From contig JAQGEQ010000090.1 in the NCBI GenBank assembly GCA_034620365.1, positions 713,966 to 777,965 of the forward strand: DNA of 64,000 nt, given 5' to 3'. Each line of letters begins with the position of its first letter. Within the stretch, counting starts at the first letter, position 1. This DNA is from Pegea sp. RAD2-039 (Eukaryota; Chordata; Thaliacea; Salpida; Salpidae). The translations under genes were made by a program, and so were the position numbers. Of the stretch, positions 1,617 to 60,300 are shown piece after piece. Below the pieces are notes generated by a model, which searched no databases, was not told the origin of the DNA, and saw only the letters and a program-made list of their open reading frames with translations.

Positions 1617-2090
1617 TTATTTAAGTAATAATTCAGTATTATCGAAGCGATAAAACCCAAACTTGTTATCAACTGTAACATCTTGTGCTCCTAAATCTTT
1701 TAAGAACTGAAATCGTTGATCAAAAGTTACACAAGGTATCATTACTATCGTATGTTCATTTCCAGTTGTAGCTACTTCCTTTAATAGTTGAAACTCATTT
1801 GCTTGAGTTCTATACTCAGGTTCAATATAAAAATCTTCTATATATAATCCTTTTCCTTTCCAAGTAGAATAATAATAATATGATAATGTATAACCAACTG
1901 GTATATGAGAAGAATTTTCAAGAATATGACAGAAAAAAAATGGATTGCTTCCAGTAAAGCCATCTTTTATCAAGTCTTCAGCATTTATACATTTTTTAGT
2001 GTCTAATGCATGAAACTTGGCGAGTTTTTTCATCATTTCTAGAATGTCTGGACAATCTTCAACTGTAGCTTTTCGAACAAAACAACTCAT
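1617..2090 (-). CDS. SAT-like N-acetyltransferase-fold protein, copy 1
   Basis: A 157-residue intronless ORF, colinear over its whole length with animal spermidine/spermine N1-acetyltransferase (SAT1/SAT2, about 170 aa; GNAT fold). Landmarks are CFVRKATVEDCPDILEMM at the N-terminus, KDGF near residue 50, and the strand LYIEDFYIEPEYR, which aligns with the polyamine-site strand LYLEDFFV. The glycine-rich acetyl-CoA loop after EPEYR is not present (TQANEF where SAT has GFGIGS), and the catalytic Tyr position before KDLGA is Leu. SAT activity is therefore doubtful; the fold is probably kept. An open frame extends upstream to 2219 but has no ATG matching the second copy. I chose the Met at 2090 because it aligns with that copy and with SAT1. 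An acceptor-like AG lies at 2116-2117. Confidence 0.75.
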   Translation of the reverse strand: MSCFVRKATVEDCPDILEMMKKLAKFHALDTKKCINAEDLIKDGFTGSNPFFFCHILENSSHIPVGYTLSYYYYSTWKGKGLYIEDFYIEPEYRTQANEFQLLKEVATTGNEHTIVMIPCVTFDQRFQFLKDLGAQDVTVDNKFGFYRFDNTELLLK

Positions 2091-2334
2091 AATGTGATAA
2101 AATAAGTTTTCAAATCTATAAGGAAAAAGTATAAAATATTGATAGATAAAAAAAACTTTAAGTATTTGCACTGAAATCAGAGTAACATAATAATAAAAAT
2201 AATATTGCATTAAGTACAAAATAAACCTTATTTGTTTTAAGAGATATATTGATTAATATCAATAATAACTACATACATATTTAAACTATCTGATAGTGAA
2301 TAAAACAAAAAGTTTTAATAACCGAAACGTCACT

Positions 2335-5176: not shown

Positions 5177-8100
5177 ATGGTTGAAAAGAATAAGAAACGG
5201 AAATCTGAAATAGCTGATGTAGAAAAACCAGGTAAAAAGTTGAAATATTTTTCAGTCAGAATGTTTGTTTTAAAACAAAAATCTTTTGATAAGTATTTTT
5301 AAGAATTTAGTTTTATATATTTTGAACTATATGACTTTAAAAACAAAAATTATAAAGTTTTGTATTTAGAATATAATAAGAAATATAAATATTTAAATTG
5401 ACATTTATAAGACAAATATATGTAAGAAACTAATTATTATTAATTAAGACTTATTGCAAACATTAAAAATATTTATATTTCTATGATTTCAAATAAGTTT
5501 CATTTTTTTAATATTTCATTTTTATTTCAACAAAACAAATTATTACTTTTAAATATAAATAAATGATAATAAATATGTAATTTATGTGATAAAAATTACT
5601 TCATTTATTAATTTATGGCCCTGATTTTAATCTTATTCGAAACAAGCAAATATTAAGAAAATTATGAGTCAAATTATTACCTTGATATATAAAAACTGTA
5701 GAACAAATTTCTCTTATAGAACAAATTTGTTGAATTTTGGTTCAGTTTACTTCGAGCTAACTTGTTTAGTATCAAGCTATTTTCCTCTGATATATTTTTC
5801 AGCTAAAAAGTTAAAGGCTAGCAATCCTGTTGGTAAAAAGGAAAAAGGTGTGAAGAAATTACAGAAAGAAACAGCTAAAACTAGAAGAGACCGGAAAATA
5901 TTTAGGTAAAAATTAATATTTCTACAAATAATTTGTTAAGTTGTTTATTTAACAGACAAAAGCAGAAACCTAAATATGAATTAACATCTGAATCCAAAAA
6001 GATTTGGGAGAAGTTAAGAATTCAAAAAAATCAACTTTCCAAGAAACAAAATTACGAATTAGTTGATGAATTGATGCAATTGGTCAAAAATAAAGATAAA
6101 AATGTGAGTATGATGTCATCAAAGGCTCCCAGTTGATCCCAATATTCAACAAAAGCTCCCAGTTGATCTCAACATCCAACAGAAGCTCCTATTCGATCCC
6201 AACATCCAACAGAAGCTCCTATTCGATTCCAACATCCAACAGAAGCTCCCAGTTGATCCCAACATCCAACAGAAGCTCCCAGTTGATTCCAACATCCAAC
6301 AGAAGCTCCCAGTTGATCCCAACATCCAACAGAAGCTCCCAGTTGATCCCAACATCCAACAGAAGCTCCTATTCGATCCCAACATCCAACAAAAGCTCCT
6401 ATTCGATTCCAACATCCAACAGAAGCTCCCAGTTGATCCCAACATCCAACAGAAGCTCCCAGTTGATCCCAACATCCAACAGAAGCTCCCAGTTGATCCC
6501 AACATCCAACAGAAGCTCCCAGTTGATTCCAACATCCAACAGAAGCTCCCAGTTGATCCCAACATCCAACAGAAGCTCCCAGTTGATCCCAACATCCAAC
6601 AGAAGCTCCTATTCGATCCCAACATCCAACAAAAGCTCCTATTCGATTCCAACATCCAACAGAAGCTCCCAGTTGATCCCAACATCCAACAGAAGCTCCC
6701 AGTTGATCCCAACATCCAACAGAAGCTCCCAGTTGATCCCAACATCCACAGAAGCTCCCAGTTGATCCCAACATCCAACAGAAGCTCCTATTCGATCCCA
6801 ACATCCAACAAAAGCTCCTATTCGATTCCAACATCCAACAGAAGCTCCCAGTTGATCCCAACATCCAACAGAAGCTCCTATTCGATTCCAACATCCAACA
6901 GAAGCTCCTATTCGATTCCAACATCCAACAGAAGCTCCTAGTCGATTCCAACATCCAACAGAAGCTCCCAGTTAATTCCAACATCCAACAGAAGCTCCTA
7001 GTCGGTTCCAACATCCAACAGAAGCTCCTATTCGATCCCAACATCCAACAGAAGCTCCCAGTTAATTCCAACATCCAACAGAAGCTCCTAGTCGGTTCCA
7101 ACATCCAACAGAAGCTCCCAGTTGATCCCAACATTCAACAGAAGCTCCCAGTTAATTCCAACATCCAACAGAAGCTCCCAGTTGATCCCAACATCCAACA
7201 GAAGCTCCTAGTTGATTCCAACATCCAACAGAAGCTCCCAGTTGATCCCAACATCCAGCAAAACCTCTTTCCTACTTTTAAATCCTTCCAAATTTACCCC
7301 CTGGCTAACTTTCCATATTTTTCTAATATATTTTTTACCTTTACTCCTTCTCCTAGTTGTTGAATCTGGTGTATGCTCATGATACAAGTCGAATCATCCA
7401 AACATGTTTGAAAGAAGGAAGCGTTGAACAACGGAATCAAATATTCGAGGAACTTAAAAATGATCTTTTGTTGCTGAGTAAAAACAAATATGCCAAAAAT
7501 ATTCTGTGGAAGATGGTGAAGTACGGGTAAGTTGCTAACTTCAGGGGTTTGTCATCATGTCGTGACGTCATCACTTGTTTCATAGCAACGCTGAACAGCG
7601 TGAACAAATAATCAACAGCTTTAAAGGACATATTTACGATTTGATGAAAAAAAATCGGTTATCTGCTAGTATCATTGAATACTTTTATAATGATTATGCA
7701 AACGTGAAGCAACGTCAGATGATTACTCGAGAATTATGTGGAAAGATGTTTCAACTTCACGCGGTTTGTAGCTGTAAAAATCGCGTTTTCGCGTTCCTTA
7801 TTAATTACTGTGTAGAAATCAGAAGAATTGCCATTTACTGAGGTTTGGAAACTGCTCGAAACTGACGAAGAGAAGAAGTCGTTGCTATGCAGCTTTCATA
7901 AAGCGTTGCTACCATTCGCTGAAAAAGCGGTGATGACGTGTACAGTTCTTCATCAAGTATTCCATGATTACTTCATCGTTTGCAACGATTCGAAATTACG
8001 AAGTGTAAGTCAGATAGTCCATCAGTAAAACATTTGGCCAGTAATCGAAGGACCCGGGTTCGAATACAGCATTTACCCTTTTTTTTTTAATAGGAAATGA

Positions 8101-9225
8101 TTGAATCAGTTCGAGATGTCCTCGTCCATATAATGCACTCTCGCGAAGGTGCTTACGTCACAATGAGATGTTTGTGGTTTGGAACAAAGAAAGATCGGAA
8201 AGTGATCCTGAAAACGATGAAGGAGTTTGTGTTGAAATTATGTTGTGAAGAATTTGGATATTTTGTTCTTTTAACATCTTTTGATTGTATTGATGATACA
8301 GTGTTCCTTAAAAAAGCGATCATTAATGTAAGTCACGTGCTTCAAAATAAACAAATGATGACGTCATCATTACAGACGATTATGAAGAATATCGATGACG
8401 TCATCAAAGATGAATATGGAGTGAAAGTTTTGATTTATCTGATGTCACCACGTGACCCGTCACATTTCACGTCACAAACCATCAAACTTCTCGAAGAAGG
8501 TCTCAACAATCCAACTAGGTTTGAATCAACTTCGGGAAAGTCCCAAAAATTTCATTTCTTCGATTTTCAGTAAAAAAGGAAATGACCAACGTCATAAAGA
8601 ACTTCTCGAAGCTGTGACGTCACCAGTAGCTCAGTATCTCGCCGATAACATCGAAGATTTGATGTTTGACGTCAAACGGTTTTTCCTGATCAAAATTGCC
8701 TTGACTAATTGTCCAGTGGACCAATTGGAACCTCTGTTTAAGGTGGTTGGAGGTCTATTTGCTGTTCCTTTTGAAGCTGGTCAAAAGGATAAAAAGGGAC
8801 ATGTTAGTAGTCACGTGATGATGACGTCATCACATGCTAATGACGTCATTTGCAGTTACATGTGGTCGAGGAGTTGACGTCACACGCGGCGCTGAAGAAG
8901 ATTATCAAATTTGAATCGAAGCAGGTCATCGAGAAAATCAGAGGTAATTTCCCGAAGATGAAATTCTTCTCGTTTTGATTTAGGGGATTTTTTTGTAGAA
9001 AAAGCCGATTTCTCGCTGTTTCTCTTGAATCAAGTCGATGCCGAGCATTTGTATTCGATGACGTCATGTAGTCGCGGTATTTCCTTTTTACTTGGATTTG
9101 TCGAAAGTGAATGTGCGATGACGTCATCACTGGCTAAGAAGATGTTAAATGAAAAAATTGAAGGTTTGAAAGAAAGAAACGAATCAAAATTAAAGGAAAT
9201 TTTGTTAACAAAATTAAATGAATGA
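5177..9225 (+). CDS. PUM3: PUM3 (Puf-A / KIAA0020) pumilio-repeat nucleolar protein
   Basis: Eleven coding exons by my model: 5177-5231, 5803-5905, 5956-6103, 7357-7526, 7586-7763, 7816-8004, 8094-8327, 8376-8518, 8571-8802, 8856-8943, 8999-9225. They join in frame to 588 aa (human PUM3 is about 648). A short lysine-rich N-terminus is followed by Puf-like repeats that follow PUM3 closely: VYAHDTSRIIQ, NAEQREQIINSFKGHI, MRCLWFGTKKDRKVI, LTSFDCIDDT, YLMSPRDP. Family knowledge: PUM3 is the animal relative of yeast Puf6, an RNA- and DNA-binding nucleolar protein in 60S ribosome maturation. Introns are 47-90 bp except intron 1 (571 bp) and intron 3 (1253 bp, filled by a minisatellite). An acceptor-like AG sits at 5151-5152, 24 nt before the ATG. 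The frame is intact throughout. Confidence 0.9.
6122..7261 (+). repeat. 30-bp minisatellite inside PUM3 intron 3
   Basis: About 38 head-to-tail 30-bp units, with a conserved part close to CCCAACATCCAACAGAAGCT. The rest of the unit comes in types: A (cccagttgat), B (ctattcgat) and, near the end, ctagtcg forms. It lies between a GTGAGT donor (6104) and a TCCTAG acceptor (7351-7356). One unit near 6748 is a base short and shifts the register. Because 30 is a multiple of 3, open frames run through it on both strands, but they are by-products of the repeat and not genes. Confidence 0.95.
8030..8093 (+). other. tRNA-like B box and T-run in PUM3 intron 6
   Basis: The 89-bp intron 8005-8093 contains GACCCGGGTTCGAATACAG, a good match to a Pol III B box (GGTTCGANNCC type), followed about 20 nt later by a run of at least nine T. 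No A box or cloverleaf is evident. It could be a SINE or tRNA relic. Confidence 0.45.
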
Positions 9226-9269
9226 CCGAAAATGGATTCTTGCTTTTTTGGCATAAACTAAAATCGTTC

Positions 9270-9288
9270 AATAAATTTCCGAAATAAA
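9270..9288 (+). terminator. PUM3 polyadenylation signals
   Basis: Two AATAAA hexamers at 9270-9275 and 9283-9288, 45-60 bp after the PUM3 stop codon. Confidence 0.6.
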
Positions 9289-9322
9289 AACTTTTGTGCT
9301 GATTCATCTCAACGTGATGACG

Positions 9323-9815
9323 TCATCGTTGTGTATCTAGAAGTAACTTGAATGAAATGTTAGAAATGAAATTACTGAGATTATTTAGAAGCAACTTTAG
9401 ATTCATGAGTTGCAGAATTTGATGATTCAAATAAATCCGTCGAATTTCCAAAGTATCTAATTTGAAGAAACTGAGACGATGTTTATAACTATCATATTTA
9501 ATAATAAGTTTCCTGCATACTAATCTTGTAAATGTGGCCTGAACAGATTCGATTTTTTTGATACCACTAACTTGATATGGCATCCATGCACTGACATTGT
9601 ATTCAAGAATTGGACGTACGTACAATTTGAAAAGATTGACAAAAAGCATAGATCCTTAGAATTAAGAGTCTTTATAATAAGGTAGACATGATTGATTGAT
9701 TTTCCAAAGATTTTAGAAACATAATTGTGCCATTTAAAGTCAGATGATAGAGTAATGACAAGGTCTAGGACCGAAGATATTTGTTGAATAATAAATCTAT
9801 GTTTGTCTAAGGAAT
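9323..9815 (-). mobile_element. Relic of a non-LTR retrotransposon reverse transcriptase
   Basis: Minus strand. The sequence encodes the end of a LINE-type reverse transcriptase in two frames. From about 9815 down it reads HRFIIQQISSVLDLVITLSS then DFKWHNYVSKI, matching the conserved stretch after the RT active site. After a frame change near 9650 it reads LYVRPILEYNVSAWMPY and IKKIESVQATFTRLV, the usual RT C-terminal motif. No upstream endonuclease or catalytic (F/Y)xDD region is present, so this is a 5'-truncated, frameshifted dead copy. The clade is not assigned. It begins about 100 bp after the PUM3 stop. Confidence 0.8.
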
Positions 9816-9829
9816 TTGAAGCTGGTTAA

Positions 9830-11635
9830 CATTATATTCAACAATTTGTAAAATTGAGATAGAGTATTACTTTCATAACGAATCTAATAATTAATTTCAT
9901 ATTTAAATCTTTCAATAATCTTTGAAAAATTCACTTCAATTTGATTTTAAAAAAAATTTCATTTTCTTCTTTTTGTTTTGAAATCACAAAATATTATTCT
10001 GATTTGTATTTTATAAATAATTTCATTCAAAATGTCAGCTTATAAAAGATATGATGCAAAGATTAATTTCTTTTTCATTTTAATAAAAACACACTCTACA
10101 AAATTTTGAGTGTTTTTTGTAAAAATATCTAAACTTAAGAGAGATGCAGAAATCTTTAAAGCATCTTTTAAATCTCGATAAAACTCACTCTTCTGAAAAC
10201 ACGCACATGTAATTAATCTAATTGAATAGAAATTTGAGAAAATGTATAAAATCATTGTAGACATGAGTATACGTAAATGTTAATCAAATGAAATTCAATC
10301 AGATGTTTAAATAGAAGATTTGATTATCAAAAGTTGGAAGTATACAAAATAAAAGCTTTCATCTGACAAACGGTTTAAACGATTTATTTGAAATAAAATA
10401 AAAATTGAAGAAAATTAAAAAAAAATACTTTTTATCGCATCAATAAATAAATAGAATTTGAAATTTGAAACTTAAAGATATAAAAATAAAATTATAAGAT
10501 TTCAAATTGAATTATAGTAGTTAAGATTACAAACAAATCTTACTGATGATGATTGAAGACACTTAATTAATCAAATTTTATTTAAAGCAGTTATTTGGAA
10601 GATATTAGATTTCAACTTATTTCATATTAGATTTAGTAACTGAATCAGAAAGTCATAATTCAATTGTCAAAACAGTCTATGTGGTCGTTTTTACTCTTTG
10701 AAGGGATTTACTTATCTAATTTATGATGCTGAGATAAAGTGGGAGATTATGACTAGAAAATGAGGTAATAAGTTCCCACGCTACTTATACACGTTGGTGT
10801 TCCTAAAAACAACCGCGCTTCTAGTTTCATGACGTCATGCTTCGATAGAAGACAATTAATAGTGGCGAAAGTGGAAATATATTTTATTTACAGCACAGAA
10901 CAGTTGAATTGTATAAATCTACTTTTACATTGATCCACATTTAACTTGATAGTCTATTACATCTTGTTTAGTTTTTCTGCTATGCGACAAACAGTCTCTC
11001 ATCTCCAAAACTTCTTTTAGCTTGAAATGTAAACATCACTATGAGATGAGAGCTTTGAAATTTGATTCAGTTTACTTATTTTTAGTTTTTTTGTTTCATT
11101 GAAGGCTTTAGCAATTACTAAGAAAGAATAAGAAGGATTTTTAATATTTAATTTCAAGTTTGATCCAAATCCGAGTTAGTTATTCAGTTTTTTTAAATAT
11201 GCTTCAGCCGAGAACGGTTCTGCTGTAAGCCAGGGCAGAAATTATCGAGATCCAGTTGTTGCCCATGTATGGTCCACCTTGGGTCGACCTTTGACCTGGT
11301 TGGCGAGTATGGTGACCACAGACATGGATAAGTAATTACAGTTACTAAGTTTTAGTTTATTTACAGATTTTAGATAACTTTAAAGACTATTAATGATGTA
11401 ACATATTTCTATTTAAAAAAACTTTTATTCTAAATCTTGTAAATCTTTCATCAGGTTTTCTGAGCTTTATTTTTCAGACTTGAGTTTATTTATAAAAGAT
11501 AAATTTCGAATCAGCAATTTTAGATGTAGATAAATTTATGGAATTTACGATTATATAAATGTTTTTCATTCTAGAAATTTAAAACAAATTTTTATGATTT
11601 AAGAACCTTGCACAATCACTAAAAAACTTATTTTC
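9830..11635. other. Intergenic region, start of the lectin duplication
   Basis: No coding exon seen. From about 10600 the sequence resembles 13940-14090, so it marks the start of the tandem lectin duplication. A GC-richer patch at 11210-11330 is not explained by any feature I recognise. Confidence 0.5.
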
Positions 11636-12780
11636 AGAAACTAAACTGCTAATTAACATCAGATAATGTCAGTTATCTTCAAATTTTTCATGACTTTATT
11701 TGTAAGTTATCAAATTTATCAGCTTCCTGCGTCAATGGCAAATCCTCCTCGTATCTATGACGATAATCCGTTGAAATCTTTGAAGAAATGTCCTTTTGTT
11801 GTTGAAACTGATTCCAATACAGTTTTGATAGTGGATCGCTCCTTAAAATATGATGATGCAATCAACCATTGTAAAGATCTTGGATATGAGTTGCTTACTA
11901 TAAAAACTAAAGAAGATTTCCACCAACTTCAACCATTCATGGAGATCTGTACACTGGTTGAAGGAGATAACGAACGTGAAAATGTAGTTCGTAGATCTAA
12001 TAAAGATATGTGGCATGCTGGAGCTGTTGTAGAAGACGATAAAGGAGTTTGGAGTGATGGAACAAGTTTTAATGTCCCTCAATTAAAAGATTTTGTAAGA
12101 GAACCTATTACAACTGGTCCTTTGTCATTTAGTATGTTCCAAGATAAATTTCTAGTGAGAATTAGAAAGATGCCATTTTTTTGTCGAATGAATAAACCAA
12201 CGACGACGACAGGATCTCAATCAACAACTCAAAATACAGAAGTTACGCCACCTAGTGTGGAAGTTTCGACTTTTAATACAGATGTTGCAACACCATATGC
12301 AGATGTAGTAAGGTCTGATCTTGTTAAAACAACAGATTGTTCTTTTAAAGGAAGCCATTTTGACTATTCGATAACTTTATCTATAATTTGTTATTGTGGT
12401 GGCTTGATGCTTGTAGTGATAATACTTGCTTCTTTGATAGCTGTCAAGTGTTCAAGAGAATAAATAAATTAATTTCAAAAAGATTTGAATGGTTCTTCTG
12501 AGTTTAAGAATAAGCTGCAAACTAAATTCAGTTAAATTTACTGATATTCTACTTGAAGAACTACTTATGTTTGTTCGAAGTGATTTCATTTATCTGAATA
12601 ATTTCAGAACATTTTGAAATCTTTAATTATGTTAATGTTTATGTCATCATTGTCAAAATAGAACAATTTCAAAATAGCAAATTACAGATTTAAAAAAAGT
12701 TTTTTTTCTAATTTACAAATTTTTTCTGACTTATTGTTCGCTGAAACTAAACTAAAAGTTAATTTTAATAAAATATTTTA
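10600..12780 (+). repeat. First unit of a tandem segmental duplication (lectin locus)
   Basis: The upstream landmark (CAGAAAGTCATAATTCAATT near 10645) and 3' landmark (ACTAAACTAAAAGTT near 12750) both recur around the second lectin gene, near 13965 and 18045. The flanks have drifted, with many indels, while the central lectin-domain block is nearly identical. Confidence 0.7.
11666..12463 (+). CDS. C-type-lectin-like membrane protein A (short stalk, short tail)
   Basis: A single-exon ORF of 265 aa. It has a hydrophobic N-terminal signal (about residues 5-24), then a degenerate C-type-lectin-like domain at roughly 40-177: YDDAINHCKDLGYELLTI in place of the usual helix-1 region, MWHAGAVVEDDKGVWSDG like the WxGL...WxWxDG motif, and a final FFCRM. 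Four cysteines fit two CTLD disulfides. I see no EPN/QPD-WND calcium site. A short Thr/Ser-rich stalk with one 14-aa repeat, a transmembrane segment (about 233-260) and a tail of only four or five residues follow. The ligand is unknown. The stop codon overlaps an AATAAA. An acceptor-like AG lies at 11636-11637. Its CTLD is nearly identical to that of the gene at 16305. Confidence 0.75.
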   Translation: MSVIFKFFMTLFVSYQIYQLPASMANPPRIYDDNPLKSLKKCPFVVETDSNTVLIVDRSLKYDDAINHCKDLGYELLTIKTKEDFHQLQPFMEICTLVEGDNERENVVRRSNKDMWHAGAVVEDDKGVWSDGTSFNVPQLKDFVREPITTGPLSFSMFQDKFLVRIRKMPFFCRMNKPTTTTGSQSTTQNTEVTPPSVEVSTFNTDVATPYADVVRSDLVKTTDCSFKGSHFDYSITLSIICYCGGLMLVVIILASLIAVKCSRE

Positions 12781-15700: not shown

Positions 15701-16304
15701 AACTTCTTTATGATAAGAAAATAAGTTTATTTTGAGCTTTTTCGAGGTAAGGAAATTATTTTTTTCTACATTTCTGCAGATTTTATCGGTTTAGTATTAA
15801 ATCAAAGACTCAAATGTAATTTTCACGACAGTTTAAACCATAATTGATGTCTTTAAAGTGTTTTCGTCACCTGAGTGCTAACACAAAATTTGTTTAAACA
15901 GAACAGTTATTAGCAAGAATTAGTCTTTGATGACAATCATTTTTCACAAAGCTCTTTACAGGATGATTTACACGAAGATGATGATAGGATTTAGTTTCAC
16001 AAAGCTAGAAAGCTGATTAAGTTTTGTTTTATTTAATTTTGAGGTTTCTGCAGCTCTTATATAAGCATTAAGTTACAGTTGATTTAGTTTATAGCATTTC
16101 AATATTATCTTCATTTGATTATTGACGTTTCTTAATTTAAAGTTTTGATTTTCTAAAATAAAATAAAAGAAGCTATTCAAGCACTAAGTGAAGATTACTA
16201 CTTAGATGTAGATTTAGTTGTTATTTTCCTGTTTGTTCTCAAACTCAGCATCATTTTCTCTTTTAGACTTAAAGAATTTTTTACAATTATGTTGAAATGT
16301 TTTT
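12464..16304. other. Intergenic region between the two lectin genes
   Basis: No supported exon. From about 13940 onward it contains a diverged copy of the sequence upstream of the first lectin gene. Open frames near 14371-14670 and 15113-15343 have no domain signature and look like chance frames in AT-rich DNA. Confidence 0.5.
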
Positions 16305-17780
16305 ATGATGTGTAAAATATTCAAATTTTTCATGACCTTATTTGTAAGTTATCAAATTCATCAGCTTCCTGCGTCAATGGCAAATCCTCCTCGTATCTAT
16401 GACGATAATCCGTTGAAATCTTTGAAGAAATGTCCTTTTGTTGTTGAAACTGATTCCAATACAGTTTTGATAGTGGATCGCTCCTTAAAATATGATGATG
16501 CAATCAACCATTGTAAAGATCTTGGATATGAGTTGCTTCCTATAAAAACTAAAGAAGATTTCCATCAACTTCAACCATTCATGGAGATCTGTACACTGGT
16601 TGAAGGAGATAACGAACGTGAAAATGTAGTTCGTAGATCTAATAAAGATTTGTGGCATGCTGGAGCTGTTGTAGAAGACGATAAAGGAGTTTGGAGTGAT
16701 GGAACAAGTTTTAATGTCCCTCAATTAAAAGATTTTGTAAGAGAACCTATTACAACTGGTCCTTTGTCATTTAGTATGTTCCAAGATAAATTTCTAGTGA
16801 GAATTAGAAAGATGCCATTTTTTTGTCGAATGAATAAACCAACGACGACGTCAGGATCTCAATCAACAACTCAAAATATCGAAGTTACGCCACCTAGTGT
16901 GGAAGTTTCGACTTTTAATACGAAGCTTACGACACCTAGTGTGGAAGTTTCAACTTTTAATACAGATCTTACGACACCTAGTGTGGAAGTTTCTACTTTT
17001 AATACGAAGTTTACGACACCTAGTGTGGAAGTTTCGACTTTTAATACGAAGTTTACGACACCTAGTGTAGAAGTTTCGACTTTTAATACGAAGCTTACGA
17101 CACCTAGTGTGGAAGTTTCGACTCTTAATACAGATCTTACGCCACCTAGTGTGGAAGTTTCGACTTCTAATACGAAGTTTACGACACCTAGTGTGGAAGT
17201 TTCGACTCTTAATACAGATCTTACGCCACCTAGTGTGGAAGTTTCGACTTCTAATACGAAGTTTACGCCACCTACTGTGGAAGTTTCATCTTTTAATACA
17301 AAGCTTACGACACCTAGTGTGGAAGTTTCGACTTCTAATACGAAGTTTACGACACCTAGTGTGGAAGTTTCGTCTTTTAATACAGATCTTACGACGACTA
17401 ATGTGAATCCATCTCTTATGGAAGTTCCGACACCTGATATGAGCTTGTTGACTACTAATCTTGTTGAAACAACAGAAAGTCATCAGAGCTCTTCATCAAA
17501 TTCATTTCTACTTGTTTCTGGATTGGTTGTTGCTGTTTGTTTGGTTGTTACTTTACTGTGTGTTATTTATTTTTTAAATAATAAACGAAAAAGGAGAAAT
17601 AAACAACTAAACAGCAACTCGTTAAATACTGGAGAGACTTATACCTTAAAGTCATTGAGCTCAACTGATAGCTGTTCTGAAGATGCAAGATGTCTTTCTC
17701 CTGGTCCTTATCAATATAGCGATCCTTTTTCTAATCAGAACTCTTATCAACCTACTAATAAATGGTTTGTTGATGTTTAG
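16305..17780 (+). CDS. C-type-lectin-like membrane protein B (repeat stalk, cytoplasmic tail)
   Basis: A single-exon ORF of 491 aa. The signal and CTLD (about 1-182) match the gene at 11666 except for a handful of residues. A stalk of 12 tandem 14-aa units follows (type TTPSVEVSTFNTKL), rich in Thr and Ser and probably O-glycosylated. Then come a transmembrane segment (about 401-424, LLVSGLVVAVCLVVTLLCVI), a basic stop-transfer (KRKRR) and a 67-aa cytoplasmic tail with four tyrosines. The tail ends FVDV, which fits a class II PDZ ligand (inference). I find no ITIM or ITAM. The start follows two out-of-frame ATGs (16289, 16297), so the true start could be a later Met (MTLFVSY). An acceptor-like AG is at 16265-16266. 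Confidence 0.75.
   Translation: MMCKIFKFFMTLFVSYQIHQLPASMANPPRIYDDNPLKSLKKCPFVVETDSNTVLIVDRSLKYDDAINHCKDLGYELLPIKTKEDFHQLQPFMEICTLVEGDNERENVVRRSNKDLWHAGAVVEDDKGVWSDGTSFNVPQLKDFVREPITTGPLSFSMFQDKFLVRIRKMPFFCRMNKPTTTSGSQSTTQNIEVTPPSVEVSTFNTKLTTPSVEVSTFNTDLTTPSVEVSTFNTKFTTPSVEVSTFNTKFTTPSVEVSTFNTKLTTPSVEVSTLNTDLTPPSVEVSTSNTKFTTPSVEVSTLNTDLTPPSVEVSTSNTKFTPPTVEVSSFNTKLTTPSVEVSTSNTKFTTPSVEVSSFNTDLTTTNVNPSLMEVPTPDMSLLTTNLVETTESHQSSSSNSFLLVSGLVVAVCLVVTLLCVIYFLNNKRKRRNKQLNSNSLNTGETYTLKSLSSTDSCSEDARCLSPGPYQYSDPFSNQNSYQPTNKWFVDV
16886..17393 (+). repeat. 42-bp coding minisatellite in lectin B stalk
   Basis: Twelve in-frame 42-bp units containing CACCTAGTGTGGAAGTTTCG, followed by a degenerate unit. Unit subtypes alternate near the end (pairs STLNTDL / STSNTKF), which suggests that blocks of two units were copied together. 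Lectin A carries only one full unit at the matching place. Confidence 0.95.
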
Positions 17781-20700
17781 CAAATATTCAATGATGAAAT
17801 TTGTTACTATATGCGATGAAACTTTGTAATTTTGATTCTAAATGCTTATTATGATGTAGTTTTGATGATCAATTTATTGGCAATTGATATCTGTTTGATT
17901 TTAATAGTTTTTGTAAACTTGAACAAAGTAAATACGGTTACTTTCACAAATTATCATCGTTCATTTATACCAATGATTATTCAAATTCAAATACAAAGTT
18001 TTCGTTTCAAGTAAAAACTTATTTTTCTAGCTTATTGTTTGTTACAACTAAACTAAAAGTTTATTTAGTAAAACCTTTTGGTGAAATCTATTTCTAACTT
18101 GTCAAGCTCTTCTGATAGCTAGTGAAGTTTATAGTGTTAGCTTCAAACAATTTTTAAAGATGCAATCTTGAAACAGCATCTAGGCAGAAGTGAAAAAGAC
18201 TAAAATTGGTTTTCGAAATTAAATATGATTTGTTTTACTCTGAAGAGTAAAATATATCATCAACTTTAAAGTGTGATTTATATAAAACGCTAAAAATCAA
18301 AAACACTGCTGCTGATGAGAGCTTATTAAACTGAATACCAAAACTCATCACTAAAATCTCTCTAACAGACATCAATATAAGTTCAATATAAAGTAAAAAT
18401 GAACTAGCAGCTTAGAAACAGCTGCGAGTAAAACTTCTTTCATTGAAAACACTAATAACCTTGTGGTCCATTTCCTATATTTACCCATAAAGCCCACAAG
18501 GTGAAAAGTCCACAAGCTAAGGGACACCAGTAGAAATTGTTTAAAATAAATTTAAGGAATTTTTTTGGTGTTCACATTCTCCAGCAGTTATTTTGAAAGT
18601 TTTCCTAAAACTAGTTTTCTTTGAGTAAGAAAGATGTAATTGAAGTCTAACAGAAAGTAAAGTTGAGGAATAATTAGTTTTATTTATAATAACAAAGAAT
18701 ATACCGAGCATCTACAACAACTACCAACACTTTCAAGTTTCAGTTTTGTTTATTTATTTTAGGTTATGCCCTATATCAATTTTTTCATAGTTGTTCTTTA
18801 TTTTGTAGAAATTATTTATGAATTACCAAAAAAGCAGGAAATAAGTAATCAGCAGCTTGCTTCGAGTTTAAGGGTTTCAAAATTCAATTAAATAATGTTA
18901 AGTTCGCTGAGAAAAGGGGTTTTTAAGTGATGTTTTCGTTTTAATAAAAAAGATTTTTACAATACAATATTTAGAAAGGTATTTAGAAATATATTACTGA
19001 ATTTTTGCTGAGAGAATTTCAATCTATTTGTCTTTGAATGTTTGCTTATCATCAACAAAAAACTTTTTAAAACTTTATTTATAAAAGTCTATATATCCTC
19101 AGATAAGAAGTAGAGGTTATTACTCTTTTCTGATCTTCTAATCCGAGTTTTTGAAAGTAAATTGGAAGATGTGGATGTAGAGGGAGTCTTAAGATCTTCC
19201 AAATAGGAGAAGAATCTTTAGTAGGATCTTGAAATCATTTCATGAGATCTTTAAAATCCGGAAAACTCACTTCTGCAGTGAATCATCTCTTGAAACTTCA
19301 TCAACTGATTTCCGGTTCAAAATCGCGTCTGTTCGCTCTCTGTTGTTTTCAGAAGCTTTAAACATCACGTTGGCATGATGACGAGATCTTCGCACGCGAC
19401 CCTAAATACGTGACTAGTCTGTGAATGACGTCATCAAGTCACGACGCACCTCATAACGTTTATCGACGAGTAAATCGATCTCTGGGACATCGTGATGCTG
19501 CGTGAAGCTCCGAAAAATTATTTGGAGATATTTTGACGGATGAAAGCTCCGTAAGATTTATGTAAAGTTGATGATTGGATGATAGAAGATCTATGTGATC
19601 ACAGAAGACACAAAATAGATATAAGATCAAAAGATTTCTGTTTTTTAAATTTTGATTTTGTAGTTGCAAATGAAACAAGAAAGATGAAAGAATAATGGAG
19701 AAAAAGAGATAAGCCAGAAGATAAAAGTTCTAAAGAGAATTAGCTTATAGAAAGAGCAATAAGGAGAAAGAGTAAGTAAGAATTTCTATACAGAAAAGGT
19801 GAAGAAAAGAGAATTGTAGGTTGGAAGAGCAAATCCTGTTTTTCTGTGAATTCAGTTTTAAAATTTCTTGAAAAATAAAGAAAAAAAAATTCAAATGAAT
19901 ATTTAAAATAGTTTTAACAAAGCTAAATTTATTCTCGATTAAATGATTCTAGGTTAAAAAATTAATCGTTAACCTATAAAACCTAGACAAATTATTCCAG
20001 GTTAACGATTAAAGTATTCCAGGTTAACAAATTAATCGTTAACCTATGAAACCTAGAAAACTAAGTAAATTCTCGAAACTGGTCTAGTTAACTTTAACAA
20101 ATTTCTGAAGCTTTCTGAGAAATTTTAATTCTTTGAAAATACGAAAATTTTTTACTAGTAAATTTAGATTAAACAAATTGTTAATCGCTTTTTATTTCCT
20201 AAAATTATTTTATTTCCTAAAGTTATTCAATCTAATGCTTAAACCAAAAACCTTCTTTATTTATTTCTCTCAAAGATAAAAGTGTAACTTGAGAAACTAC
20301 TACAGTTCTAGTTGTAAACATTAAGTTATAAAATATCTGTTTAAGTTAAAATATAATTTTGGTTAAACGATATTTAATATAAATTAGTAAGTTAGCTAGT
20401 TAAAATTAGTTGATAATATTTTAACTTAACAATAAAGCTCATTTAATTTCTATTGTAAGTTAGTAGCAAATTAGTTTATAGTGTTGATGACTAATAATAT
20501 TAATTATTGACTTCTACAACTGTAGTATATACTCAACTACCCAGGTGACCTTAATTAGCTCAGTTAAGAAGCTTAGGCAGCTTGCTGAATTTTGATTAAA
20601 CTTTTATTAAATTAATTTATGATTTTATTTAATTAACAAATTTCTTGATTACAGCTCAATTTTTAAAGTTAGCAAAATATTGCTTTGTATATCTCATGAC

Positions 20701-20800: not shown

Positions 20801-21352
20801 AAATAGCTGAAAATACTGAAAAAGAAAGATATTTTTATCTGTTTCTTACACCAGTATTTTTACAATTTCTACAAATTTAACTGATTTAGTTAATTAGTAA
20901 CATTTGATAATAGCCTGCTCATAAAAATAAAAATTTTGAAATTGTTTAAATTCTGCAGACTTTTTTTGAGTGGACGCCCGATAACATTAAAACTTTCTTC
21001 TATGTTTGCAAAGCTTCTCTTTTATCAAAAACTGATCAATTTTCTCAACTATTTAGTTCAACTAGAAGAATAAAAAACTTATTAGTATTATTATTAGCAG
21101 ACATAAAAGTGACGTTTCGGTTATTAAAACTTTTTGTTTTATTCATTATCAGATAGTTTAAATATTTATGTAGTTATTATTGATATTAATTAATATATCT
21201 CTTAAAACAATTAAGATTTATTTTGTACTTAATGCAATATTATTTTTATTATTATGTTATTCTGATTTCAGTGCAAATATTTAAAGTTTTTTTTTATCTA
21301 TCAACATTTTATACTTTTTCCTTATAGATTTGAAAACTTATTTTATCACATT

Positions 21353-21826
21353 ATGAATTGTTTTGTTCGAAAAGCTAAAGTTAAAGATTGTCCAGACATT
21401 CTAGAAATGATGAAAAAACTCGCCAAGTTTCATGCATTAGACACTAAAAAATGTATAAATGCTGAAGACTTGATAAAAGATGGCTTTACTGGAAGCAATC
21501 CATTTTTTTTCTGTCATATTCTTGAAAATTCTTCTCATATACCAGTTGGTTATACATTATCATATTACTTTTTTTGTACTTGGAAAGGAAAAGGATTATA
21601 TATAGAAGATTTTTATATTGAACCTGAGTATAGAACTCAGACAAATGAGTTTCAACTATTAAAGGAAGTAGCTACAACTGGAAATGAACATACGATAGTA
21701 ATGATACCTTGTGTAACTTTTGATCAACGATTTCAGTTCTTAAAAGATTTAGGAGCACAAGATGTTACAGTTGAAGAAAAGTTTGAGTTTTATCGCTTCG
21801 ATAACACTGAATTATTACTTAAATAA
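21353..21826 (+). CDS. SAT-like N-acetyltransferase-fold protein, copy 2
   Basis: A 157-residue intronless ORF, about 94% identical to the inverted copy at 1617-2090 (about ten substitutions, no indel). It has the same family landmarks, including LYIEDFYIEPEYR, and the same two losses relative to SAT1: no Gly-rich acetyl-CoA loop (YRTQTNEFQLL) and Leu at the catalytic Tyr position before KDLGA. That both copies stay open with only scattered changes suggests they are recent or still selected. An acceptor-like AG stands at 21326-21327, 25 nt upstream of the ATG. Expected location is the cytosol if it resembles SAT. Confidence 0.75.
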   Translation: MNCFVRKAKVKDCPDILEMMKKLAKFHALDTKKCINAEDLIKDGFTGSNPFFFCHILENSSHIPVGYTLSYYFFCTWKGKGLYIEDFYIEPEYRTQTNEFQLLKEVATTGNEHTIVMIPCVTFDQRFQFLKDLGAQDVTVEEKFEFYRFDNTELLLK

Positions 21827-33433: not shown

Positions 33434-36400
33434 GCAGCAAAAACTTGGAAATGAGTGAGTCGGGAAATAATCTCCTCAATTAACAGACGCATGCAAAAAA
33501 ATACAGAAAAAAGCCGTTTAACTAGTGGTAGTTATTTTGCTAGTAAAAGTTGCGTCATTTTCAAGCATTTGTTTCAGACATTTTTTAGCGGCACTATTCA
33601 CAAATTACTTAACAAAATTAAAGTTTTAAATAACAATTTAATTCATATATTTTCTTTTATAATTTTTTGGGTATAGTCTTTTAACCAAGTTTTAAACAAA
33701 TTCACGTTTTATATTGTTAACAAATTTGTATAATTGTTGTAAATTTGGTGAAAGTATATTGTTTTGCAGCTTACGTAAATGTGTCACCCCTTATTACCTT
33801 ACATACTTAGTTCATTCGGTAGCACGCTGTAATGTTAGTTTGTCATCTTTTTACAAATTGAATAAATCTTAAATACTTGTTTTCATTACAATCAAAACAC
33901 AAAAATTTATATAATTAAATTTAATGATTGTTTATATTGATAAAAAAATCACATAGCTAATATGGCTAAAATCACATAGCTATGCTTTTTGTTTACTATT
34001 TGATTTGCTTATTGCATTTTCATATTTTAGTTTTTGAGCTTTTATCAAAACTATTATAAATTTATTTTTAGTATTCTATGTAACTTAATTTTTATAGAAA
34101 TTATAAATTTGAGAGTTTATTAGAATATGGTTTGACTTTTTTAAAGATTCAAATTCTGGTTTTATTTACAAAACGTGATCTCATCTAGAGTATATAAATG
34201 TAAATAAAAAAGTTGCCAGGTAAGACGTTAATATAGGAAGTAGATTTCTGAGTAAGGAAGAATTTGATGAATTTGAGGATAGTCTTTGAAGTAGAAGATA
34301 ATATTTTTAAAGAGTTTTGCTGACAGATGTAGTAGCCCTGAAAACAATTTTCTCATGCCACACAAAACTCATAGGAGCAGGAGAAGAATGCCACCTACTT
34401 TGTCTACACTTTGTATAATTTGATTTGAAAAAGTCTTATTTCTATCTTGATATGTTTAAATGATTTTAAATGTTTGTAGAACCTTTAAAAGTTTAATACT
34501 TTTATATAAATCAAGTATTTTGAGATACAACAAAGCTAAAATATTGCTTTTAATTCTTTTATAATTCCAAACAAACTTCCTTTCTCAGCAAATATTGGAA
34601 GCTTTCCAAAACCATAGTTTGCTGAAGCTAGCATAAATTTAAATCGTAGAACTTTCACTTTTGTGTTGTAAATTGATATGGTCTTTTTGAAAATGCTGAC
34701 AAAACAACTGATACTACGTCCTAAAAAAACAAACTAAGAGTTCAAGCAAGGTGTCGATATATTTACGTCAGTAGCTAGAAGCTTTACTTGGTCAATAAGT
34801 TTATGGATGACAAATTCTTTTTATCTTTTTTGTCAAATTCATTTGAACAATTTTAGTAATTGGATAGTTTCATAAAGAAATTATTGGTTTGACGTCAGTT
34901 AAGTTGACCAACAGTTCAAATGAAAATTTAATACTTTGTAAGCTAAAAAGGAAGTCACTTTCACATGATTCATAATATACAGATTTAGGTTAAATAGTTA
35001 TTGATGTTTTTTATTTAAAATTTATTGAATTAAATAAATTATTTTAATATAAACATTATCACATAATACAAAAATTACAATTGTCATATTAATGTATTGA
35101 AGAAATAAATAAATTAGGAAATATGTTTTAATGTTCGGAAAATTATTTTTTTATCTAAAACAGGATTTGATATTTTGTTTATTTATTCAACGCATGACTA
35201 CACATATCAAATCATACAGCCCCTATATGGCACCTAACACAAAATGGCCTCTGAAATAAAAGTTTCAAATATTACAAATCAAACTCGCAAAGTATAATAA
35301 CAGCTAAGAATTCTAAAATATATAAATAAACAAAATTATGAAGATGACAGTCTAATAACTCAAATCATAGGTTTTAGGTGGACAGAATTTTGTGGAGTTT
35401 ATTAAAAGATTCCAAACTGCTACTACTAATCAACGAGAAAAACTATTAGTGTTATTAACATTTTTAATTAGGTAAATTTTGAACAATCAATTATTTTATC
35501 TCGGGGTTTTACACAAACCTTAGTTCATTTTTGAAAACTGAATAAAATCGTTTTTTAATTGTTCCATTTTTTTGAATTTTTTAAGGTAAGTACAAAATAT
35601 AATGAATCGTAAAATCTTCCATTTCTTTTCTAGCTTAAAACTATTTGGTTTTATTTCCTAATAAATCTCTAATTCTCTAATATTTATTATTTATTTTTAA
35701 AGACCTTTATTTAAAAAAGTAAAAAAACTAAATGATAAGAGTAATTGAATAAATTTAATTAATTAGTTTGCCACCTTCATTGTCAATGAAGCCAATTTCG
35801 GTATTAAAGACATTTATGTGTTTAAGATTATTAAATTAATACAACTCTATAAAGCGGTAGTCATCAAGGTTTGTTTTTCAAAATATATAAGTCGTAACGA
35901 CGCCATAAGTAAAAATAATTCAGTACTTTCTACAAAACAGAAATGAGTTTGTAGTAAACTAGTTTAATTCATAGATTGAGAAAATTTGAGGATAATTCAT
36001 ATTCAATCATCACTTATTATCTGATTCTGAAGTTTTGATGATAGTATGGGTTGTTGTTTCAGACAGAGACTTCATAATAGTTGTTTTTTGTAATCTAATT
36101 TTAATTGTTTCAAAATTTAATCTTCAAATTAAAGATGTTTAAATCAGCTGGTATAAAAACATAAACTAAGAAATATAAGCTAAGTTTTTTGTTACTGAGG
36201 TGTTTTGGAATCATTCCAATAAACTTTTCTTCGTATTCTGTTTAAAAAAATACTTTATAATTGTGAGATATCTTCACATTTTGAAATTTGAGTAAAAAAT
36301 CTTTTCTTGAACAACAAAACGTTTTATTTCCTGTCTATTAGTAAACTAGAAAATAGTTTCAAACATAAAAAGTAAACTCAACAAATTGACCGGAACTCAC

Positions 36401-36794: not shown

Positions 36795-41935
<5,141 letters not shown>

Positions 41936-54523: not shown

Positions 54524-56449
54524 TGACAATTATCCAAACCTTTTTTCTATTTAAAAGGAGTTTTTATTACAAAAAATTATAAAATAGAAATTATTGTTGG
54601 TTTTGAAAACTGTTTTTACTTAGCATCAAAAATATTTGAAAAATTAACTTTCAGTGAAAGAAAAATTACCTTAGCTGTAAAAATTTCTTTTTAAAAATAA
54701 AAATAAATCGATTTTATAAATTTGTTAATTTAAACATTTTCAAAATTCCCCTGTTTTTATAAATATTTATAAATTTGAATAAGTATTTATAGAATATCAG
54801 ATAATATAATAAGATTTTGTTTTAGTAGTTTACAAAGTTTCGATTTATTTGAGTATTTTTCTGAAAGAAATAAGAATTGTTTTTAAGTTGCAGATTTCTT
54901 TAGTTGAAAGTTCTTCTTTTATAAAATGATTATAAATTTTGTAAATCTTTCTACACTTTTAGTTTTAATATTTTTACTAAAATAGAATTGAAAAATAAAA
55001 TCTGTAGTTTTTGTTAATTTAGTTTTAGACAATTATTCGCCAGTAATTTCTAACAAATAATATCTCAATATAGAAAGTTGTTTTATTCCTTTATATAGTC
55101 TGAAAGTAGACTACTAAAATGGCGTTAAATCAAAAGATGCGTCTTAGAAAATACAAAATATATCTTAGAGTTTAAACTTTGATATTTTAATAATTTCATT
55201 AAAAAGTAATTTTCATTCAAATAAAATTTATAAAATATTTTATTAAAGATGAAAAACAATTCATCTGACTCAAGCTAACTGAAAATGAATTTTTAATGAG
55301 TTTTCAAAAGTTCGTCGGTTTTATAATTTACAAGAATTTGTTTAATTTATATTCAAGAAGTTTTTTGTTACAATAATGATGATAATTAACATTTAAACTC
55401 ATCAAGCTAATAATTAGTTTCTAATTTGCTTCAATTAGTCAGTTCTTTCTTTTGAGATATGTTTCATTTGTGTCAACTTTCTGTATTTTTCTTAAGCAAT
55501 TTTTTAACACAAGCAGATACTTTGATTTGTAGTTTATATTTATTTATTTTTATGTTAAAAACTAAACGCTGAAAGTTTTTAGAGTTCCTCCTTTTCTTTA
55601 AAATTGGTTTTTCTTCTCTATCTTTTATAAAATAAATGACATTAATAAAAAATTTCCAGATAAAAATTTAAAAAAACTTTAAGTTAAAAATAGCTAGAAA
55701 CTTTATCTAAAAATAATTTAACAACCGAAATTAATAATATTAACTTTTTAGCCGTCAAAATATTAAATATAGAAAATTTAAACACTAAATAATTTAATAC
55801 AAAATGATAAAAATAATTTGAATAATGAACCAAAAGTGTCACGTGATACTATAACGCGATAATAAAATCATGATGACGTCATCAGTCAATTTTTATTCGT
55901 TGCAAAATTTTGGTTTTTAAATATTAATTAAGTTTAGAATTTTGAAATGAGAATATTTATGTTTATATGTACTTCCCTTAAAATAATTTTTGTTTAAAGC
56001 AATAGAAATATTTTATTAAAATATTTTCAATTTTTTTAATAAGAAAAATAAATTGTAGAAAATCAAATGAAACGATTTTTAGATAAAGACGAAGAAAAAC
56101 TGTTTCAAATCTTTTCATTCATATGATTGTAGCGTAGTAAACCACTTTATAAAAACATCACATTGAATTATTAGCACCAGTTTTTGTTTGTTTACTTTAT
56201 TTATATTAAATCATTAATTTAAAATCAGACAAAAGTTTAAAAGTTAGTAATGATAACTGATCTTTTCGAATATATCACAATTCCTAAATTTACGCAAGCG
56301 GTCTTTGAAAATTTTATTCTTAAAATAAGTCAAAGTAATTACTTCATAAACCAAAATTTAACTTAAAAAAAGAAAATGAAATATTTAGAATTAAAAATAT
56401 AAATAAATAAAATATTCTAAAACTTTAGCTTGTTCAGTTATCAATTAAA
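54524..56449. other. AT-rich intergenic region
   Basis: Between the LRR gene and the tetraspan gene. No supported exon. One TGACGTCA lies at 55874-55881. Confidence 0.5.
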
Positions 56450-57389: not shown

Positions 57390-60300
57390 TCAGGCTTGTG
57401 CTTCTTCATCTGATAGATTGATTCGAATCTCAGCCATTCTCAGCTGTGGAAAGACTTTCAACTTGACCTCCTCATCATCATCAACAGCTCCAGGTATATG
57501 TTCGAGATTCACTCTGAAGAAAACACTTGATTCATCGAATCAAGTAGCTGCTGATACTTACTCTTGTTGAGATCTTCTGTATGATGATTCGTACATAGAC
57601 GGCGACTTTAATGGTCGTCTACAAAAAAGCCCGAAGTTGAAACTATTTGATGAAAGTTAGATACTGACGTCATCAGAATAGTTTTATTGATTTCATTGAC
57701 TGATGAAGTCTGATTATGAATGATCTGATGTAGGAGTTGTCTAATCTCTTTCATCTCACGTTTGATCATCTTTAACTCGCTTCCTGGTAACTTCTCTCTT
57801 CTTCTTTCTGATCCTTTAACTTCCTGAAATTGATTAAAATGATCAGATGAGGATATTTGAGTTGATAGTTTGAATTGGAATTGATTAGCAACAAACCGGA
57901 ACTTGAGGTGGAAGACCTCTGTTTTCATCTTCTAATAAAACAGTTTGTGACTGAAGCAGAAAATTAATTTGAATTAAAAATTAATCTTTTATCATTTTTT
58001 TTTTTAGTAAAGACTCAAAACCTCATCGTTGAGTCTTTCCACTAATAAATCCAACTGATCTTTTATCTGAAAAGTGACTTTTTTTAGATTCTCATCTCCA
58101 GGAGTTGTAAGATCATCATCATAACTCATTTCTTCAGGATTACAGAACCTCAGTAAGTGTCTAAGATGGAAGATTTGAAATAAATGAAGAAAGTCAGGAA
58201 GACTAACTCATAAAATCGAGATTTCCGGTCAGCTGATTGAAAACTGAGAAGCAAAGATGCTTGCTGCATCACTGCGTTAGCGCGCGCGTTGTCATAAACC
58301 CTACACAAAGACATCATTTGTATCAGAAGATCAGATGCAGAGATCTACCTCTGAAATGTGTCCGAAAGAAGAGCAATGAACAAATTAAGACACAAAACAG
58401 CTGACAGGAAAGTAAATGTGACGATAAGGAAGTAGCTCATCACTACGTCATAACTCGTCATCGCGTCATATTCGTAATCGTCCACAAGAGTGAGACGATA
58501 AAGTGATATAATCAACTTGTCCACTTGTGAAAGACTCGGGACAGCCGCGATTCCGCCTGAAACGCATGAGTGAACATGATACGTCTGATACGCATGAATG
58601 AACATCAAACCAAAAGTCATCCAGAAGACGATTGAATATGGAATGAAGAACTCGAGATAGAGATAAAGAAATCGAAGGATATCGCTTCCAAGTTTAGTTA
58701 GCATGACGATAAAAGGACCCAGCTGACTGTAAACAACTGATTAGTTGTTAGTTGGTTGCGATGACAACTAACCGGAAAGCGCGCGCGTATTTCATCAAGC
58801 GCAGCCACATACAAATAATTGTGATCGCGAATATTCGATTGTTCCAAACTGTTAGACTTTGATTATTTACATAACTATCTTCTCGGTCGCATGAGTAAGT
58901 ATCGGCGGGAGTTTCGCAACCCAAAGTCGGGGAACAACAAATTGGAACCCGAAAAGGTCGCGCAGCATCAATAACATGTGTGATCTGTTCTTAAAGATCT
59001 AATTAAGTTTAATGAAGTTGTGATGAGCTGAATAATTTACAAGAACAAGAAAAGAGAGAGAATAAACGATCCAATCGAAATAATTCCACATATCCTGGAA
59101 GTAAGAAGACACAGAGTTCTCAATCAAGTCAATCTCATCTTTTAAGTAATCAGATTCCTACAAAAAAGATGAATAAAAAGATGTAGCGTCAGTTTATCCG
59201 CTTACATCCGGCCATTTTGGATGACACAGTTTAAAATCTCTTTTGATCTCACTGATCCTCCAGCTCTTCCACTCTTTAAACTTCTTCCGGGACTTCATGA
59301 TCTCTCGGACCTCATCAACGATGAAGTAGAGAGTGAAGATGAACCCAACAACAAGAAAAACCAGTTTCGCTAAATCCTAATCAGATATCAAAAAGAAGTT
59401 GTTGATAGAAGTCGACCAGGGGCACCTGTGGGAAGTTGTACACTGGTCGCAAGTACCAGGGACTAATCACTGCAAACGTTGTCCAGATCAGGACATACAG
59501 GATGTTGATCAATAAGTTGATCCAAGCAACTTTTCTATTAGAAAAGATTTTAGAACTTTTATTCGAATCTCAGCTGATTTTTAAAACCTCCCAAATGAGT
59601 CCCACTTTACATCAATTAATCGGATTATAACTGGATGTAGGATCAAATCTAATTGTCTGTATAAAACGATTGCTTCCAGCTGGAATAGAAGCAGAAATTG
59701 GAAGATGTTGGGAAGTTTAGGAGGTTTATCACCGGGGTTTTAGCTAGAGATGAATTTCTATTTTTATCTTCATTTTTTTCATCTAACATTGAACATTCGA
59801 TTTCAAAAAGTTGGAAAAATTGTTTTCTATTTCTTCTATCTTTTCGATGAAACTTATCCAACGCGATATTAGCCTGAAATACTTCAATGTTTATCGATTA
59901 AAACTTCAGTTGTCATGGTAACAAACCACTGGCGCCATTTTTATAATCATATGAGTGATACATTTGTAACCAGCTTGATCAACAACTGACACCTGGGCAC
60001 CTCGCTCCACTAGCTCGCGAGCTGTCTCACTACGATCTAACTCTGCAGCTAGAAACAAAGGCGTTCGATTCTTGTAGTCACGTGACTCTGTATCTGCTCC
60101 TGATTCTAACAGCATTATTAAAGACTCGACTGCATCATTGCTAGCAGCGTAATGTAGAGGGGTTTGCCCTCCTTTAGCACGTGCTTCGTAGTCAGCTGTT
60201 TCAAAGAATTGAATCAAATAAGTTTTAAAGATTTGTGTCTACCTCCATTTTCTATGAGGATTTGAACCATCTCTTTGTAGTCAGTTGCTGCTGCGATGTG

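Follow-up and report, generated by a model that had tools for sequence, protein, structure and literature searches.

The octamer in the window

The window analysed here is a 64,000-nucleotide stretch of the salp Pegea sp. RAD2-039 (GenBank GCA_034620365.1, contig JAQGEQ010000090.1, positions 713,966 to 777,965 of the forward strand), and it holds many copies of the palindromic octamer TGACGTCA, the cyclic AMP response element (CRE). Two genes in the window hold dense groups of this word, here called islands. Exons in 7357-9225 match the PUM3 structure KIAA0020 (E 1.6e-100) and those in 37856-39959 match ATP2C1/SPCA (E 1.4e-206), so both gene names given in a preliminary description of the window are correct. 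The genes, the islands and the solitary copies are as follows.

7357..9225, plus strand: PUM3, 3′ exons to the stop codon, 487 codons including the stop, with seven introns of 48-89 bp
7563..9325: motif island in PUM3 with 11 TGACGTCA, four intronic, six exonic and one ∼90 bp past the stop codon
37856..39959, minus strand: SPCA (ATP2C1-like), middle exons, 553 residues, with nine introns of 43-53 bp
38040..39621: motif island in SPCA with five TGACGTCA, three intronic (38040, 39180, 39614) and two exonic (38320, 38494)
10830..10837: single TGACGTCA
19426..19433: single TGACGTCA
34890..34897: single TGACGTCA
55874..55881: single TGACGTCA, part of a complete 12-mer
57665..57672: single TGACGTCA

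All 21 exact copies counted in the preliminary description lie where it placed them: 11 in 7563-9325, five in 38040-39621 and one each at 10830, 19426, 34890, 55874 and 57665. It had expected about 0.5 copies, and the excess is borne out by 100 dinucleotide-preserving shuffles of the window, which give a mean of 0.42 copies and a maximum of three. With four tandem arrays masked, no other 8-mer in the window departs as far from a first-order Markov model as TGACGTCA. The longer form that had also been noticed is present in full, as GATGACGTCATC, at seven of the 21 sites (8359, 8396, 8822, 9119, 9318, 38494 and 55874). A sixth place in the SPCA island, in an intron near 38240, holds the decayed form TGATGTCA with TTACGTCA. 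Sites occur in introns, in flanks and in two of the three exon frames, just as described; the third frame would read TGA, a stop codon. The clusters in PUM3 and SPCA are thus real, but they are not peculiar to these two genes. An Rfam search of the window returned no match.

Extent and form of the excess

The assembly around the window comprises 105.7 Mb in 387 contigs and contains 27,792 copies of TGACGTCA against 969 of the letter-reversed word (28.7 times), a lenient control because the reversed word lacks CpG in a CpG-poor genome. The 12-mer GATGACGTCATC occurs 3,824 times against four for its reverse and, with at most one mismatch, 11,980 times against 173. The nematode SL1 leader has no match in the assembly, and a first-look search for COX1 gave none either, so that mitochondrial DNA is probably missing from it. 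The original observation was therefore correct and understated: the excess is genome-wide. The preliminary description had asked whether counts elsewhere would fall to expectation or prove limited to the copies of one repeat. Neither is the case, as flanks beyond three bases on each side, outside the favoured form TGATGACGTCATCA, are near background. Base composition does not account for the excess either, since Markov expectations are 0.4-1.5 per sequence set and many high-GC bins are without the motif. Protein coding can also be ruled out, for introns are denser than exons and two frames are used.

The copies are clustered. A sample of 23 pieces of 10 kb, spaced along contigs C1 and C3, gave 20 copies in 230 kb, which is below the genome mean, and many copies must therefore lie in dense places. 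Two such places, picked for their listed 12-mers, are L015 with 32 copies in 10 kb and L016 with 19. On C1 the first 100 sites leave 99 gaps between them, of which 29 do not exceed 500 bp, where 3.1 would be expected, and 107 of the 156 10-kb bins of C1:1-1.56 Mb hold no copy at all, a clustered spread unlike that of HIP1-type words. Sites on C1 put island size very roughly at 1-5 kb.

The favoured form over 100 distinct sites is TGATGACGTCATCA, with a TGA/TCA flank preference for each half. A at -1 and T at +1 occur together in 46 of the 100 sites against 42.8 expected; the two halves of the palindrome vary independently, as they would for a symmetric dimer. Islands totalling 13,285 bp contain 71 copies of the CRE against 0.47 expected and nine of the T-form TGATGTCA against 1.4. 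The AP-1 word TGACTCA shows no enrichment, with three copies in islands (3.4 expected) and 34 elsewhere (36.4 expected). This specificity fits the earlier identification of the word as a CRE/ATF site. Five other CpG palindromes (TTACGTAA, GTACGTAC, AGACGTCT, CGACGTCG and TGTCGACA) have zero to one copy in islands, but with expectations below 0.5 these counts say only that none approaches the CRE. In 301,104 bp of non-island DNA the CRE is still raised (24 copies, 1.5 expected), as are GTACGTAC (four, 0.6 expected) and an ETS word (11, 2.7 expected).

The word is also sharply defined. Motif-rich DNA totalling 19,346 bp, a set that takes in a short tandem stretch of L015, contains 78 perfect copies, and the 24 one-mismatch words together reach 31 (10.2 expected). 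Free decay would leave more near-misses, and so we infer that the sites are young or maintained. The DNA-level cause proposed in the preliminary description is supported by these results, although two of the forms suggested for it fare poorly: mutation bias fits badly with so few near-misses, and avoidance of a nuclease predicts depletion.

Sites in genes and their surroundings

Partial gene models were built by hand for PUM3, SPCA and a tankyrase gene identified by ankyrin, SAM and PARP matches; all are open without internal stops. Pooled, their introns (1,583 bp) contain 19 sites, or 12.0 per kb, and their exons (4,872 bp) eight, or 1.6 per kb (Fisher p 6e-7). Since the genes were picked for their clusters, the contrast within genes is fair while the densities are atypical. 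The split between introns and exons is 12 to 0 in tankyrase, where five of the 12 lie within its single 336-bp intron, 4 to 6 in PUM3 and 3 to 2 in SPCA. Aligned to known structures, all eight exonic sites (six in PUM3, two in SPCA) run without a gap in the motif codons, which indicates that they arose by substitution at the protein level. A further gene in L015, with ankyrin, RCC1 and BTB matches, is one that we take to be IBtk. Its minus-strand frame 1121-1705, read by eye, contains nine sites that encode MTSS, DDVI, RDVI and similar peptides; since L015 is not among the pooled models, the totals above are too low for the exonic sites of this gene.

CpG is preserved in the islands. With the motif masked, the observed-to-expected ratio of CpG is 1.12 pooled over seven islands (0.83 to 1.27 singly), compared with 0.69 in 73 motif-free 500-bp bins matched for GC and 0.66 in the non-island DNA retrieved. 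The corresponding ratios for GpC are 0.98 in islands and 0.96 in the matched bins. The deaminated 12-mer GATGATGTCATC occurs in 343 and 277 copies on the two strands (control, two and four), to be set against the 3,824 intact ones.

DNMT1 genes are present and form an expanded, intronless, multicopy family. The frame L030 matches DNMT1 structures with E down to 4e-193, and a C5 methylase model matches three places strongly and four others weakly, DNMT1-like wherever the translation was read.

C57:824201-827200 (L030), C57:819728-821071 and C249:1740707-1742050: strong C5 methylase copies, 181-185 bits
C32:24001-26800 (L031), two more on C32, and C52:9209-10639: weak C5 methylase copies, 71-77 bits

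L031, the one weak copy that was translated, is 53% identical to L030 and keeps the BAH domain, but it lacks the PCQ and ENV catalytic motifs. It is possibly a non-catalytic DNMT1 paralogue.

Both islands of the window have a minisatellite nearby.

6125..7257: 30-bp minisatellite, 37.8 copies, ending 306 bp upstream of the PUM3 island
39989..40755: 20-bp minisatellite, 38.3 copies, beginning 368 bp beyond the SPCA island

Across 31 tiles of 10 kb, such arrays were found in four of the five tiles with at least five motifs and in two of the 26 others (p 0.002), with the proviso that four of the motif-rich tiles were not random (L015, L016 and two from the window) and that the L015 array itself contains the motif. 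Among 23 regular tiles only L022 has an array, and it is also the richest in motifs. The link between minisatellites and islands is suggestive only, and that the two window arrays belong to the CRE system is likewise only suggested. Elsewhere, the motif recurs in successive units of the minisatellites C1:6114786-6115655 (33-bp steps), C8:368056-368223 (20-bp steps) and L015:173-336 (36-bp units).

Spacing and company of the sites were also recorded. None of 56 close pairs listed on C1 has starts 8-10 bp apart and 10 lie at exactly 20 bp; genome-wide, 466 of 5,280 pairs over 31 spacings fall at 20 bp, 2.7 times the mean. Two helical turns of this length would suit paired dimers, but the support is weak because 20-bp tandem arrays supply part of the signal. 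The E-box palindrome TCACGTGA is in excess genome-wide as well (4,614 copies against 237 reversed). On C1, 10 of its 41 occurrences have a CRE no more than 200 bp away, against 0.83 by circular shift, and its enrichment in the retrieved DNA is equal inside islands (6.4 times, three copies) and outside them (7.4 times, 11 copies).

The window has other repeats as well. Two near-identical open frames lie on the plus strand at 11657-12463, which has no Pfam match, and at 16296-17780, which contains a 42-bp coding minisatellite of 12.4 copies. A further frame, which we assume to be acetyltransferase-like, occurs in two closely similar copies at 1617-2252 (minus) and 21266-21826 (plus). A 31-bp tandem repeat, strongly skewed between the strands, fills 61887-64000 with at least 68 copies and continues past the window end.

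Forces that may maintain the word

Whatever shapes this pattern should act on the DNA itself, recognise the entire palindrome one half at a time, work chiefly in the islands where CpG has been kept, and be held back by constraint on the proteins. We tentatively favour a DNA-level force on the complete site, most likely exerted when a bZIP dimer of the CREB/ATF type binds to islands in the germ line; on sequence grounds such binding would meet these demands best. A protein of this type would read the whole palindrome as a symmetric dimer and, in the germ line, would use the islands as homotypic arrays. Bound islands would stay open and probably unmethylated. A weak advantage for each complete site would accumulate and maintain sites, while selection on the protein would thin them in exons. 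If the logarithm of enrichment is read as an equilibrium, the scaled coefficients are ∼5.0 in islands, a value inflated by the choice of islands for their motifs, and ∼2.8 elsewhere.

Several observations sit uneasily with binding as the cause. The selection of islands for holding the motif inflates every island enrichment, not the coefficient alone. Coding exons are an odd location for regulatory sites. Words for NRF1, ETS and SP1 are not clearly enriched in islands, with no copies each against 0.1-0.5 expected. The 12 bZIP_1 matches found in the genome speak for binding, as does the presence of DNMT1, but they are at family level and a CRE-binding member among them is putative. Finally, the CpG contrast is most simply read as methylation-driven loss outside islands, but TpG does not bear this out: its observed-to-expected ratio is 1.12 outside islands and 1.19 inside, so that the surplus left by methylation decay is not seen outside them.

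Known systems offer partial parallels. Both TGACGTCA and YCACGTGA appear as CpG-containing factor sites of vertebrate CpG-island promoters in one study (PMC2267717). The salp islands share with these vertebrate CREB/ATF sites the octamer and the CpG-preserved surroundings, and have the E-box TCACGTGA as the second word in excess; they differ in spanning exons and introns and in the dominance of one word at up to 32 copies per 10 kb. Bacterial uptake and repair words, namely DNA uptake sequences (DUS) and words shaped by very-short-patch (VSP) repair, are products of drive, and they too are short exact words far above expectation with few near-misses. We know of no uptake or very-short-patch system in animals that reads this word.

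We consider a motif-specific drive the less probable course. A process that reads sequence would turn near-matches into perfect TGATGACGTCATCA at open islands of the germ line, its engine being either recombination and conversion guided by a bZIP protein or repair guided by methylation. Introns would then be rewritten freely, and amino-acid changes would be forced upon conserved proteins. Selection on binding, conversion drive and a repair ratchet all leave an identical static picture.

Recombination hotspots with drive are an unlikely specific form of such a process. CREs bound by bZIP proteins would open chromatin and start meiotic breaks, as at ade6-M26 of fission yeast; repair would expand minisatellites, and if conversion favoured the complete palindrome the motif would spread against protein constraint. 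There is a precedent in that M26 acts through ATGACGT and Atf1-Pcr1 within coding sequence (PMC9775316). The same review describes a CRE TGACGTCA at +1131 of ade6 that is unbound and does not promote recombination, so not every CRE is active. The salp word shares with M26 the ATGACGT core and, putatively, a bZIP ligand and the capacity to act inside coding sequence, but it is present in thousands of clustered copies. Minisatellites beside both window islands, their association with motif-rich tiles and the arrays with the motif in successive units speak for hotspots; the non-random choice of most of those tiles, and the single array among the regular ones, albeit in the motif-richest, speak against them. 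Moreover, alleles that start breaks normally lose by conversion, which would erode the motif.

A ratchet like that proposed for HIP1 is harder still to credit. Methylation of the palindrome's CpG would guide mismatch repair, and the complete word would be gained and kept as a by-product. Over-represented palindromes in cyanobacteria occur together with methyltransferases specific for them, and repair of this kind has been put forward as a model (PMC4390886). Like the salp word, HIP1 is a perfect palindrome of 8 bp whose genome-wide excess is great and extends to coding DNA. It is dispersed through its genomes, whereas TGACGTCA, here in an animal, is clustered rather than even and has a three-base flank preference on each side. 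The expanded DNMT1 family could provide a methylating enzyme, but to our knowledge DNMT1-type enzymes recognise CpG rather than an 8-mer, and we know of no methyltransferase that reads TGACGTCA. The retention of CpG in islands also suggests low methylation.

A role in the splicing of very short introns, in which the word supplies or masks a branch-point or acceptor at the RNA level, is very improbable despite some fitting positions. All but one of the 25 introns in the three pooled gene models are 43-89 bp long, and 13 of the 25 hold TGACGTCA. In the short introns of window 7357-9225 and 37856-39959 and of L016:3100-5660, 12 of 14 motifs start 12-25 bases upstream of the 3′ end (chance 0.001, for a zone chosen post hoc), and in some the motif continues into the CAG acceptor. 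However, two L015 introns, read by eye, have the word nearer the 5′ half, the word is also exonic and extragenic, and such a role would not need a palindrome. Spread of the word inside a mobile or repeated element can be all but dismissed. One repeat family does carry it (L015:8030-8371 and L016:975-1315, 92% alike), as do some tandem arrays. Of 127 duplicate alignments in the retrieved DNA, however, only two contain the word, both 92% alike and both retaining it, which is too few to gauge turnover; flanks over the 100 distinct sites are near background beyond three bases, and the exonic sites align without a gap in the motif codons.

The CRE as a binding word is itself well known. Such density through animal exons and introns was not found in the literature searched, nor was a genome-wide excess of TGACGTCA in an animal, although subscription papers were poorly covered and absence from print is not implied. 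A motif-specific drive, if true, would be a eukaryotic counterpart of HIP1. If binding by a CREB/ATF-type protein is the true cause, a short protein-binding word has become dense enough to influence which amino acids ordinary housekeeping proteins carry. The islands would then be a ready map of the germ-line action of one DNA-binding protein, and the genome a natural experiment that could separate selection on binding sites from conversion drive.

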